DNA of 26,385 nucleotides, taken from positions 1-26,385 of IMG/VR virus record IMGVR_UViG_3300009413_001951. The stretch is one strand, 5' to 3'. The translations under genes and the position numbers were made by a program. Position 1 is the stretch's first letter, and every line of letters starts with the position of its first letter. Below the pieces are notes generated by a model, which saw only the letters and a list, made by a program, of their open reading frames with translations, did no database searches and was not told the DNA's origin. Positions 11,816 through 22,047 of the stretch are shown here, in pieces. This stretch comes from a virus.

Positions 11816-12345
11816 ATATATTTGCTATTGAAAAAACTGGTAATGATATTGATTGGCACAAATCAGCTTTGTCCCATGATAACTATCGTGTAAACAAAAT
11901 GATTATTGAGTCTTGCCAGATGTTGTCCACCAATGTTCAGTTGTTCGGCTACGACAGTCGTTACAGAATGTCTTTCCAAAATCATCCCTCAACTAAATGG
12001 GCTAGAGAATCGTTTGCTAACTTTAGCAATCTGTTAGACCTAGCATTTAGTTTGCGTGGTGAGTTTTGTCGTAGACATGACAAGCAACAGCATGGGTGTG
12101 ATGATGTTCTCGTTCAAATGAATGAGTTGAGTAGGGATATTGATTTCGTAAAACAGTTTCCCACCGATGAGCCTACACAACTACCATTGTGTATGCCTGA
12201 TGAATACAAATGTGCAGATACGGTTACTGCGTATCGTACATACTTTGCTAACAAACCAAATCTTAGATACTTCCAAGGTGATGACCCTGATTGGGTTTGG
12301 CAGTATCGCACACACGAAAAGCCTATACAAATAATAGACCGATGA
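11812..12345 (+). CDS. Conserved phage hypothetical ('NHPSTKWARES' family)
   Basis: The protein has 177 residues. The order of motifs (MNIFAIEKTG at the start; HDNYRVNKMIIESCQMLST; NHPSTKWARESFANF; LPLCMPDEYK; YRTYF near the end) is one I recognise from many phage hypothetical proteins with HxxKMxxExxQ and HPxxxWARES signatures. The conserved His, Lys, Glu, Trp and Arg look like an active site, and an enzyme acting on nucleic acid or nucleotides has been suspected for such proteins; I cannot assign a reaction. ATGA overlap upstream, 4-nt overlap downstream. Confidence 0.7.
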   Translation: MNIFAIEKTGNDIDWHKSALSHDNYRVNKMIIESCQMLSTNVQLFGYDSRYRMSFQNHPSTKWARESFANFSNLLDLAFSLRGEFCRRHDKQQHGCDDVLVQMNELSRDIDFVKQFPTDEPTQLPLCMPDEYKCADTVTAYRTYFANKPNLRYFQGDDPDWVWQYRTHEKPIQIIDR

Positions 12346-15179: not shown

Positions 15180-15920
15180 TTACACAGAAATCAAGTCCTT
15201 TTCAAACTTTTTCTCGTTTACTTTGTTGCCGTGATGAATATAGGCGACAGTTTCCACAGAGGTAGACCAGCAAGCTCTACAGCTACCACACTTTCCACCA
15301 CGCTCACCAGAGCGACAGAGAGCATAACCTTTTGCGGGAACAAAATCCTCTTTGGATTGTATGATTGTTGAGTTGTTGGGGTATAGGGTAGAATCCAAAC
15401 GACCACCTTCCCGGCTATCGCTCGAATAACGCACCACTACATTCGGAAGATTTCTAATACCTTCTAACCTTTTAGCGATACCCTTAACCTTATGGCTGCG
15501 AGTAGGGAGCCAGTGCATTGTGTCAGGAGTTGAGGCGATGACCGCCCAGATTTTACCAGCCAACACTGTGCTATTGATATCTCCAGAATCAAACCAACGA
15601 AAGTATTTCATCCCTTTAATCTCTTTTACCATAGCACGAACCCATCCGTCCTTTTGCCAATCGGCTTCGTTATGCTTTCTAGCGGCAATCGTTCCCGGGA
15701 ATTGATAGGCTCCAGTGAGCGCATAGCAAAAGCTACACGCATCCGTTGGGCTTCCGTCATCTTTTCTAGCACCGGGACAAGTTTCCCAAGCAGACTGCGA
15801 CCAGGATTTTCCTGGCATTTTAGAAGTTTTCGAGAGTTTGGGCTTGGCTTTTTGCCTAGCGTTGAGAACCGCTGGCGTAGCCATCGCACCCCTGTAAGGC
15901 TTTTGGGAACTGATTGTCAT
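15180..15920 (-). CDS. GP88-like Cys-rich phage protein
   Basis: The protein has 246 residues from ATG 15920, where the predicted +1 falls (an ATG 6 nt upstream lies between the -10 and +1). Cys48, Cys62 and Cys65 (ETCPG...ACSFCYA), then YFRWFDSGD (107-114) and HWLPTRSHK match the Pfam family 'Gene product 88' known from actinobacteriophages and others. A second Cys group near the C-terminus (CGSCRACWS) could complete an iron-sulfur or zinc site. The CxxCYA pattern has invited comparison with radical-SAM proteins, but the canonical CxxxCxxC is absent. Transcribed as a single-gene leaderless unit. Confidence 0.8.
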   Translation of the reverse strand: MTISSQKPYRGAMATPAVLNARQKAKPKLSKTSKMPGKSWSQSAWETCPGARKDDGSPTDACSFCYALTGAYQFPGTIAARKHNEADWQKDGWVRAMVKEIKGMKYFRWFDSGDINSTVLAGKIWAVIASTPDTMHWLPTRSHKVKGIAKRLEGIRNLPNVVVRYSSDSREGGRLDSTLYPNNSTIIQSKEDFVPAKGYALCRSGERGGKCGSCRACWSTSVETVAYIHHGNKVNEKKFEKDLISV

Positions 15921-15926
15921 GCGCAT

Positions 15927-20301: not shown

Positions 20302-20330
20302 AGTATAACATACTCAAGCTAAGCTGTCAA
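20302..20330 (-). promoter_or_regulatory. Distal leaderless promoter
   Basis: TTGACA (20330-20325), 17-nt spacer, TATACT (20307-20302); predicted +1 is 20295, the A of the first ATG. The first promoter of the minus-strand array. Confidence 0.88.
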
Positions 20331-20354
20331 GTAAAAAGTTTTTATTTATTTGAG

Positions 20355-20383
20355 TTGACAGGGAGGGATGTCTATGTTATAAT
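20355..20383 (+). promoter_or_regulatory. Divergent plus-strand sigma70 promoter
   Basis: TTGACA (20355-20360), 17-nt spacer beginning GGGAGGG, TATAAT (20378-20383); +1 near 20390. Its leader of about 90 nt (ACCC-AAA-GGGT hairpin at about 20418-20428, a C7 run, CCTCCTGGAGG) holds no obvious gene before GTG 20483. The transcript would be antisense to the tmRNA-like gene. Confidence 0.9.
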
Positions 20384-20482: not shown

Positions 20483-20572
20483 GTGTTACATTCAGTCACT
20501 ATCACCGTTCTTGCTATTGCGATTGCCGCATACGCTAGACAAGCTTGGGACTCCTACAAACAAAAAAACTAA
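20483..20572 (+). CDS. Possible 29-aa membrane micro-peptide
   Basis: GTG 20483 to TAA 20572 reads (M)LHSVTITVLAIAIAAYARQ and a short polar tail: one transmembrane helix with a basic inner end, the classic look of a phage micro-membrane peptide. GGAGG is about 30 nt upstream, too far to be its ribosome site. An ATG two bases upstream opens another frame that lacks this pattern. It is the only candidate product of the promoter at 20355 before 20775. Confidence 0.4.
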   Translation: MLHSVTITVLAIAIAAYARQAWDSYKQKN

Positions 20573-20630: not shown

Positions 20631-20711
20631 TGGTGGAGGTGGTGGGAATTGAACCCACGTCCGAGCAGGCTCTCATTCAGAGTTCTACCCGTCGAATCGC
20701 CTGTCACCCCC
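20631..20711 (-). ncRNA. Stand-alone tRNA-like domain of tmRNA (mini-ssrA, 81 nt)
   Basis: Read on the minus strand, G1 is at 20711 and the CCA ends at 20631. The 7-bp acceptor stem GGGGGTG/CACCTCC has G3:U as its third pair, the alanine identity element, and ends in encoded ACCA. Positions 15-24 (ATTCGACGGG) are identical and in the same register as the 5' end of E. coli tmRNA. The last 33 nt align without a gap to the E. coli tmRNA 3' end, with about 29 identities by eye (GGAC, T-arm GTGGG-TTCAATT-CCCAC). Only 24 nt join the halves; they can form CTCT/AGAG plus CGGG/CCTG. The tag frame, pseudoknots and most of P2 are missing. It cannot be read as a normal tRNA: there is no canonical D-arm or anticodon loop (position 33 is not U). 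It should still be a substrate for AlaRS and SmpB/EF-Tu (inference). Confidence 0.85.
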
Positions 20712-20736: not shown

Positions 20737-20742
20737 ATTATA
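20737..20742 (-). promoter_or_regulatory. -10 box for the tmRNA-like gene
   Basis: TATAAT on the minus strand puts +1 near 20730, 19 nt before the mature 5' end. No TTGACA-like -35 is seen 16-18 nt upstream, so this may be a late-type box or a weak promoter. Confidence 0.5.
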
Positions 20743-20774
20743 GTCTGGGACTCCTATAACGGATATATAATTAT

Positions 20775-21326
20775 ATGAAAAACATATGCTTGGCACTTTT
20801 TCTCCTATTCCAGCCAGCAGCCTCCCCCCAAGACCCCGTAGTAGCAAAAAAAGATAATCTTTACATCGAGTTCATAACTGATTGCAATTGGTTAATACTC
20901 GACTTGAAAGGGAAAATAAAATTAAAGGCTGACAAACCCACTGGAAGCACAATAGGATTTCGGGCTTGGGAACCCAATAGGCACCTTGGGACTCAAGAAT
21001 ACCGGGGTATGATAATCTACCGAGACCTCGTGTACCCGTGGGCACGGGACTACCTAATATTTGCTCACAGCGCATACATTTCTACCTTTCCCGACCGATT
21101 TATATTTCCGTCGATTCCTGGTTGGCATTATGCGATACACCCGGGGAAGATAAGTGGAGGACAGTTTCCCAACGCTGGAGCCATCATGCGCCTATGGGGA
21201 CCATCTGGGCTGATAACTTTGTATAACGGCGAAGCTCTGGTCACTCACGGTGATAGCGTAGAGTATATAAAAGTAGATGAAAACGACTACCTTAACTTCC
21301 CTCCATGGCAAATATCCTTAAAATAA
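20775..21326 (+). CDS. Exported protein of unknown function
   Basis: The protein has 183 residues. A signal peptide (MKNICLALFLLFQPAAS, cleavage near AAS-PQ) precedes a beta-rich domain with many aromatic residues and no Cys pairs beyond one near the N-terminus. An AT-rich box (TATATAAT) ends 3 nt before the ATG and there is no Shine-Dalgarno. The gene overlaps the following lipoprotein gene by 22 nt, so the two may work together at the cell envelope. No family recognised. Confidence 0.7.
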   Translation: MKNICLALFLLFQPAASPQDPVVAKKDNLYIEFITDCNWLILDLKGKIKLKADKPTGSTIGFRAWEPNRHLGTQEYRGMIIYRDLVYPWARDYLIFAHSAYISTFPDRFIFPSIPGWHYAIHPGKISGGQFPNAGAIMRLWGPSGLITLYNGEALVTHGDSVEYIKVDENDYLNFPPWQISLK

Positions 21327-21766
21327 AAATTTTGTTGCTCGCTGCGCTCGCTGGATGTTTCCCTTCGGACCCTCCAGTTCCTGAGCCGGAGTTTATTGAG
21401 GTATTTGATGCTGGTTATATGGAGGTAATCGGAGGAACATCGGATTTTCTATTAGACGGGTCCCATCTTATGTTCTACATCTGGTTCGATGGAGAGGGAT
21501 ACATGAGCACTTACGGAAAGGTGGATGTTACTCGGTATCCTGATGTGGGCAATGGAGGCTTTCATTTTTGGTCCGTGTATGTTCAAGAAGGAGTATGCGA
21601 GGTCACAATACTAGAAGGTACCTATAACCTAGAAACCGACCCATGGGCTTTGGTGGGACCATCATGGTTTAAAGCATGGGGAGACGGTCTTCTGTTCGTA
21701 GCTGATGGTGGTTCCATCAAGTACGGAAACAAGTGGTACGATACACCATTTCAAAAAGAATTTTAA
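21305..21766 (+). CDS. Lipoprotein of unknown function
   Basis: The protein has 153 residues. A hydrophobic leader ends in LAALAGC, a textbook lipobox with Cys at 18, followed by a Pro-rich linker ([12 protein letters not shown]) and a beta-rich domain heavy in Gly, Trp, Tyr and Asp. The linker-plus-domain plan is usual for outer-surface lipoproteins; superinfection exclusion is one possibility. It overlaps the upstream exported protein gene. Confidence 0.75.
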
Positions 21767-21771
21767 CCCTA

Positions 21772-21779
21772 CATAAATA
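21772..21779 (+). promoter_or_regulatory. CATAAATA late-promoter-like box
   Basis: Differs by one base from the T4 late consensus TATAAATA and lies just ahead of the ferredoxin ATG (21781). The spacing would put +1 at or inside the start codon, so if functional it gives a leaderless mRNA or serves genes downstream. Confidence 0.4.
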
Positions 21780-21780
21780 T

Positions 21781-22047
21781 ATGACGTTTATTATAACAGA
21801 GCCATGCGTGGCAACTAAAGATACGGCATGTGTAGAGGTGTGTCCTGTAGATTGCATCTATGAGACAGAACCCGAAGAAAGCATGTTAAATCTTCCCATG
21901 TTCATCAATGCCGACGAATGTATCGATTGTGCAGCGTGTGAATCCGAATGCCCCGTGGACGCCATTTACGCGGAGGATATGGTACCCTCTAAATGGTCAT
22001 CCTTCACCGATATAAATTATAAACTGACGGAAGCCATGGAAGTGTAA
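21781..22047 (+). CDS. 7Fe-type bacterial ferredoxin
   Basis: The protein has 88 residues from ATG 21781; upstream in-frame starts would extend into the lipoprotein gene. Cys9-x7-Cys17-x3-Cys21-Pro is the [3Fe-4S] half-motif and Cys47-xx-Cys50-xx-Cys53-xxx-Cys57-Pro the [4Fe-4S] motif, as in 7Fe ferredoxins of the Azotobacter FdI type, with an extra Cys25. The segment after [10 protein letters not shown], and the C-terminal KW.SF..IN, are typical of that bacterial family, so capture from a host is likely. It would carry low-potential electrons. No partner enzyme is visible nearby. Confidence 0.92.

Follow-up and report, generated by a model that had tools for sequence, protein, structure and literature searches.

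A phage-encoded tmRNA that keeps only the tRNA-like domain, and its relatives in viral contigs and cultured phages

Trans-translation is nearly universal among bacteria, and the question raised by the locus described here is whether a phage carries a tmRNA that has no message and, if so, what such an RNA would do. The window, by which we mean the whole analysed stretch of 26,385 nt of the virus record IMGVR_UViG_3300009413_001951, holds an 81-nt RNA gene on the minus strand at 20711..20631. The initial annotation had read this segment as a tmRNA cut down to its tRNA-like domain (TLD), and the reading was borne out when the window was searched by cmscan with the Infernal tmRNA model: RF00023 matched the same 81 nt on the minus strand end to end, well above its gathering threshold (67.1 bits against 47, E 2.4e-24), the alignment spanning model positions 1-374 of 374 with an internal deletion of about 300 model positions. 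The R1 family model gave the window RNA 67.9 bits with the near-identical copy from L080 in its training alignment. ARAGORN, which was also run on the window, called no gene at this place and thus annotation based on ARAGORN would miss it.

The RNA has the layout GGGGGUG-ACAGGCGAUUCGA-[C...G]-GAC-GUGGGUUCAAUUCCCAC-CACCUCC-A-CCA and its parts are given in Table 1. The features of an RF00023-type TLD, namely, G3:U70, A73, the T arm, and the D-region GG...GAC, are all present, and ATTCGACGGG does lie at nt 15-24 as had been described. The acceptor stem with G3:U70, the T-loop TTCAATT, the discriminator A, and the encoded CCA were likewise confirmed from the sequence and the alignment. A tag reading frame with a resume codon and a stop is absent and so are the pseudoknots, and a linker hairpin of 30 nt occupies their place. 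Since about 300 model positions are absent and a hairpin stands there instead, the window RNA is not a complete tmRNA. This linker had been described as a 24-nt hairpin; it is a hairpin, but its extent is better given as nt 21-50 because C21 pairs with G50, and the middle of the RNA then reads as a short capped hairpin set on an outer stem of about 7 bp, with an A-rich internal loop between them. The predicted fold is made up of the acceptor stem, the linker hairpin, and the T arm (-32 kcal/mol, z -1.9). The RNA is not a canonical tRNA because it has A8 and not U8, the D stem and a 7-nt anticodon loop are absent, and ARAGORN calls no tRNA. Sequence comparison strongly supports the identity of the locus as a phage tmRNA gene of which only the TLD remains.

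Table 1. Parts of the short tmRNA gene and a nearby candidate promoter element in the window
Feature	Position	Strand	Basis or remark
Whole TLD-only tmRNA, 81 nt including encoded CCA	20631..20711	-	RF00023, R1 model
Acceptor stem 5' strand GGGGGUG, including G3	20705..20711	-	Pairs with 20635-20641
tmRNA-type D region ACAGGCGAUUCGA, D stem absent, GG retained	20692..20704	-	RF00023 alignment
Linker hairpin: outer stem, internal loop, capped inner stem	20662..20691	-	Fold and family covariation
T arm GUGGG-UUCAAUU-CCCAC	20642..20658	-	RF00023 alignment, fold, T-stem covariation
Acceptor 3' strand CACCUCC (U70), discriminator A73, encoded CCA	20631..20641	-	RF00023 alignment
Candidate -10 box TATAAT, 26 nt upstream of the RNA; no convincing -35 box	20737..20742	-	Sequence reading; weak

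Whether the same short form is kept in relatives had been set as a test of the claim, and both ends are indeed kept in related phage sequences. IMG/VR contigs were scanned with patterns in which the two tmRNA ends had to lie a short distance apart; the first pattern matched 17 contigs, a wider one matched 108, and a pattern for a U4:A69 acceptor added 22 more. After removal of L126, which lies inside a full tmRNA, the family comprises about 129 viral contigs and, counting the window, 96 distinct sequences of 74-92 nt, among which the linker is 30-33 nt long in 82. L125, L128, and L130, in which the D-region GAC is missing, were likewise left out of the family. With L080, the closest relative, identity is 99.8% over 7 kb, so that it represents the same phage, and the two RNAs differ at one position. 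Many viral contigs have only the 3' end of a tmRNA or a full tmRNA gene. Recurrence of the short form across many contigs and in cultured isolates rules out an assembly artefact.

The fold is conserved in the family. In A1, a MAFFT alignment of 53 sequences that was used for covariation, 89.9% of the cells of the structure were paired compared to 68% in shuffles, 285 cells were changed on both sides compared to 101, and the covariation score was 0.535 compared to 0.138; when the partners were slid by 1-3 columns the score was at most 0.123. The acceptor, linker, and T stems all covary. The E-value of the RF00023 match, together with the size of the family and this covariation, rules out a chance match. 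An alignment-free count over the 96 sequences, in which bases at equal distance from the two linker ends were taken as partners, showed pairs 1-5 beyond the fixed C:G to be 86-100% paired compared to 42-47% in shuffles; the 5' end of the stem was picked among the GAC positions by stem length, which slightly favours pairing. The family linker is thus built in two tiers: a conserved stem of about 7 bp is separated by an A-rich internal loop from a short inner stem, which is capped by GNRA, CNNG, or another sequence and is the least secure element (60% of its cells paired in A1). A stop codon, UAA or UAG, is found in the first internal loop of the linker in 37 of 61 non-redundant members, the window having UAG at about 20686-20680 on the minus strand. 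We considered that it could serve as a zero-length tag and rejected this because about a third of the 61 members have neither codon; the UAA or UAG is probably structural. The linker was also considered as an anticodon arm and this was rejected because in the TLD-SmpB structure SmpB fills the place of the anticodon (PMC3929946); in that structure the remainder of tmRNA projects like a variable arm (PMC3929946).

Carriers of the short tmRNA fall into at least three clearly different settings. In one, the gene order is terminase, RNA, portal, capsid, and the best match of the terminase is to actinophages (Microbacterium phages, 43%); 26 of 30 portal-linked loci have the short tmRNA on the strand of the portal gene and 36-65 nt ahead of it, and where the locus includes the terminase gene the RNA follows that gene at a distance of 84-235 nt. 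T7-like phages form another setting, and phages of about 110 kb with tRNA clusters, among them Streptomyces phage BRock, form a third. The loci of the 108-contig scan, when linked by any common flanking protein cluster, fall into 22 groups, a rough figure because the contigs are short. Unannotated short tmRNAs were also found in ten cultured phages, which are Stenotrophomonas phage Jojan60 and the nine Streptomyces phages BRock, LuckySocke, GiJojo (by BLAST only), Alone3, pSt2308, Shaeky, Tomas, Naboo, and Riptide. Tomas, Naboo, and Riptide each have a full tmRNA plus a diverged short form, and the two RNAs in such Tomasvirus-type phages may have different jobs. In Tomas (L325) the short RNA is at 12001-12078 and the full tmRNA, for which the tag DNSNVAFALAA is annotated, is at 21118-21390, about 9 kb apart; the other two records are L329 and L330. 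The CCA is encoded in 23 of 79 family members, and the majority without it implies that there the 3' end would be processed and CCA added as in a tRNA.

The family looks phage-restricted within the test that was made, in which a strict pattern was run over 84,980 bacterial and archaeal species genomes and no short form was found in bacterial chromosomes. Of the 58 chromosomal matches to this pattern, 53 lie inside full tmRNAs, as checked by the 5' motif, and the other five are truncated by the locus boundary; examples were confirmed separately. Applied to the 107 short-form viral contigs of the wider scan, the strict pattern recovers 38, and so rarer chromosomal forms could escape it.

The identity elements for alanine do not vary in this family. 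The main ones recognized by AlaRS are G3:U70 and A73 (PMC3968760). When the pattern was changed to have any other base at position 70 no contig was matched, and none was matched when G3 was changed, compared to 108 contigs with G3:U70. In the U4:A69 scan, in which position 70 was left free, it was U in 22 of 22 contigs. The cultured-phage sequences were found by BLAST without any constraint on G3:U70, and in all nine of them 3:70 is G:U and the discriminator is A, while acceptor pairs 4 to 7 vary among them. A73 and the D-region GG, neither of which was imposed by the patterns, are each present in 96 of 96 members. Since a TLD that is not chargeable also inhibits tmRNA, according to PMC4131195, the strict conservation of G3:U70 argues against a plain SmpB sponge.

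How does this RNA compare with what has been described? The initial annotation held that no described family keeps only the TLD, and that statement has to be withdrawn because the tmRNA of mycobacteriophage DS6A is listed as 'TLD only' (PMC4131195 and PMC11915505, which both refer to Mao et al. 2009) and tag-less organelle tmRNAs are known. A TLD-only phage tmRNA is thus not a new kind, and DS6A is the published precedent. The window RNA, 81 nt in a virus record, resembles it in being a phage-encoded tmRNA with little beyond the TLD, a likeness at the level of the published description; it differs in that DS6A is a single published phage case whereas here there are about 129 contigs and ten further cultured phages with a conserved two-tier linker. 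With the one-piece tmRNAs of bacteria and phages that RF00023 describes, the family has in common the G3:U70 acceptor stem, the D-region GG...GAC, the T arm, A73, and the normal 5'-3' order, but it is without the tag frame and pseudoknots and is 74-92 nt long compared to about 230-400. Tag-less tmRNAs are found in mitochondria and, in two forms of about 65 bp, in plastids (PMC11915505). These RNAs of jakobid and oomycete mitochondria and of Mallomonadaceae plastids have also retained the TLD and lost the tag; however, they belong to organelle genomes under reductive evolution and not to phages, and the resemblance is probably convergent. A very similar design comes from the laboratory: an engineered TLD, in which 25 nt from the 5' end and 34 nt from the 3' end are joined by UUCG, binds SmpB, and a solved structure shows Ala-TLD-SmpB-EF-Tu bound to a stalled ribosome (PMC3929946, PMC3968760). 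This Thermus thermophilus TLD (PDB 2CZJ; 4ABR for the complex) is near-identical in design in that two ends are joined via a short loop, which is UUCG there and a conserved hairpin in the phage RNAs. In the searchable literature, outside of which most subscription papers lie, our searches brought up no account of TLD-only RNAs as a broad family in phages, and the broad spread in phages, the conserved linker, and the strict alanine identity appear not to have been described before.

Two-piece permuted tmRNAs (RF04321, RF01850), which occur in phages as well, also have a TLD in a separate RNA, but their order is permuted and they have a message piece, whereas the window RNA has the normal order and is closed by a hairpin; RF04321 reached only 19.6 bits (E 2.9). 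With the same model, permuted two-piece tmRNAs were seen at sites without a tmRNA annotation in nine cultured phages, which are Stenotrophomonas phages QDWS359, DLP6, and BUCTxx99, Pseudomonas phage SM1, Xanthomonas phage Rb1, Tunturiibacter phage Tunturi_4, Acinetobacter phage BUCT628, Alcaligenes phage QDWS595, and Bordetella phage PHB04 (records L292, L294, L295, L296, L297, L298, L300, L301, and L302). In Tunturi_4 (L296, 1120-1467) a gene for a peptide release factor with an RF-1 domain adjoins the permuted tmRNA and is a possible second ribosome-rescue part.

We then consider what the carriers encode besides the RNA. SmpB was found in 0 of 49 carrier records, as was an RF-1/ArfB-type domain, and a tyrosine integrase was found in five of the 49. 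A full tmRNA of about 350 nt was found in none of the 94 carrier records searched with RF00023, in which the top match was the short form in all but two (L190 and L321, where the model missed the short form). Many of these records are fragments and therefore absence in any single phage is not proof. Since SmpB is in none of the 49 records, the SmpB of the host would be used. In the window the RNA gene sits in a divergent intergenic region, and the promoter scan found no full promoter on its own strand in the window and did not report the TATAAT box listed in Table 1. A sigma-70 promoter on the plus strand at 20355-20383 (12/12 match) would read the window RNA antisense, and it stands back-to-back (20302-20383) with one on the minus strand at 20330-20302 (11/12 match). 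The 11-nt motif TAGGAGTCCCA flanks the RNA gene on the minus strand at 20546-20556 and 20746-20756, 200 nt apart, and has no further exact copy in the window. Elsewhere in the window there is a gene for a phage-encoded 7Fe-type ferredoxin at 21733-22047 on the plus strand (PDB sequence matches down to E 2.6e-23) and one for a Gene product 88 family protein (PF17338) at 15180-15926 on the minus strand, a family that two further loci likewise have in the vicinity of their short tmRNA. A tblastn search of phages with a 744-aa protein of the window gave no match.

The reading that we prefer, to which we assign a probability of about 0.5, is that the phage RNA is a TLD-only tmRNA that competes with the host tmRNA and lowers tagging and trans-translation. 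Host enzymes would process the RNA as they would a tRNA, host AlaRS would charge it with alanine via G3:U70 and A73, host SmpB would bind its elbow, and EF-Tu would deliver the RNA to ribosomes that have stalled for want of a stop codon. There it would occupy the A site and be able to accept the nascent chain, and without a resume codon or a tag it would compete with the host tmRNA so that tagging and normal trans-translation would drop during infection. This reading draws on the RF00023 match, the family of about 129 contigs, the covariation and the invariant G3:U70, the lack of SmpB in 49 records and of a full tmRNA in 94, and the behaviour of the engineered TLD with SmpB and, as Ala-TLD-SmpB-EF-Tu, on a stalled ribosome (PMC3929946, PMC3968760). 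It also draws on DS6A, because a DS6A-like RNA strongly inhibits tmRNA whether it is chargeable or not, perhaps by titrating SmpB (PMC4131195), the inhibition having been reported in E. coli (Mao et al. 2009, as cited in PMC4131195 and PMC11915505). Three observations count against competition with the host tmRNA. One is the antisense promoter on the plus strand together with the lack of a full promoter on the RNA's own strand, and another is the full tmRNA in Tomas, Naboo, and Riptide, since a general blocker is expected to inhibit the phage's own tmRNA too. The third is the strictness with which G3:U70 is conserved, which goes beyond what titration of SmpB would call for.

The presence of a full tmRNA in those phages argues for a distinct job, and so it favours a tag-free rescue, in which Ala-TLD-SmpB would take the nascent chain on nonstop ribosomes, add a single alanine or several but no degradation tag, and free the ribosomes for return to the phage. 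A role that depends on charging would be in line with the strict conservation of the alanine identity, polyalanine is made in vitro by SmpB and a TLD fragment when mRNA is absent (Shimizu and Ueda 2006, as cited in PMC3929946), and tag-less mitochondrial tmRNAs are kept alongside SmpB and are thought to help with incomplete mRNAs (PMC11915505). However, no release step is known for a message-less ribosome that holds a peptidyl-TLD, an ArfB/RF-1-type factor is in none of the 49 carrier records, and inhibition of tmRNA by a similar RNA is on record for E. coli (PMC4131195, PMC11915505); we regard this rescue as a serious rival, though less likely than competition with the host tmRNA. Unlikely in our judgement is its fuller version, in which a widespread, dedicated RNA family would do more than inhibit: the charged RNA with host SmpB would take over nascent chains and add alanine untemplated and tag-free on nonstop ribosomes, the linker hairpin would tune this, and the RNA would work beside a full tmRNA in some phages. 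It is also conceivable, though very unlikely since a decoy does not require an exceptionless G3:U70, that the RNA acts as a decoy against defence systems detecting or cleaving tmRNA or SmpB complexes; the SmpB-like folds of CoCoNuTs, which would be an example, are predicted to bind tmRNA (PMC11090510), and presence in unrelated phages with absence from the chromosomes scanned fits an anti-defence part.

The remaining explanations would make the RNA a by-product, a remnant, or a fragment. Its same-strand position 36-65 nt before the portal gene in most portal-linked loci and shortly after the terminase gene is what a processing mark would predict, the tRNA-like fold directing RNase P and RNase Z to cleave a late polycistronic transcript and the freed RNA being a by-product. 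RNase P needs neither G3:U70 nor a tmRNA-type D sequence, yet both are kept, and elsewhere the RNA is in divergent regions, as in the window, or in tRNA clusters, which leaves this explanation highly improbable. Integration could have left an attP site or a decayed copy of a host tmRNA, since tmRNA genes often serve as integration sites (PMC11915505) and viral contigs with only the 3' end or with a full gene are numerous. We rejected such a prophage scar as extremely unlikely because conservation and covariation extend over both ends and the linker, a tyrosine integrase is in only five of 49 records, and Mycobacterium phage Shandong1, an attP-like control with only the 3' part beside an integrase, is not matched by the family model; among the window proteins scanned, a subset of the ORFs, none matched an integrase family. 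Two-piece tmRNAs do occur in phages (PMC9004378), so the RNA could be half of a split tmRNA with the message half elsewhere in the genome. The genes of such tmRNAs are permuted with the 3' part first whereas the window RNA keeps the normal order and has a covarying hairpin closing it, and a tag-encoding second piece, the finding of which would have spoken against the initial annotation, is not in the window, nor is there a full-length RF00023 match in the 94 related records, so that a split tmRNA is extremely unlikely.

These results carry a warning for annotation, because ARAGORN misses TLD-only RNAs and Infernal labels them as ordinary tmRNA; some of them may have been dropped from tmRNA collections that exclude truncated forms. 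A message-less tmRNA was formerly a matter of one phage, DS6A, and is now seen to recur in many phage contexts that have no recognisable common flanking genes. This is the first evidence known to us that TLD-only tmRNAs are common in phages, and it suggests that widespread phage RNAs interfere with, or bypass, the rescue of stalled ribosomes by the host. The exceptionless alanine identity, together with the existence of cultured carriers that infect laboratory hosts, makes it a testable question whether phages block or re-purpose ribosome rescue, and why.
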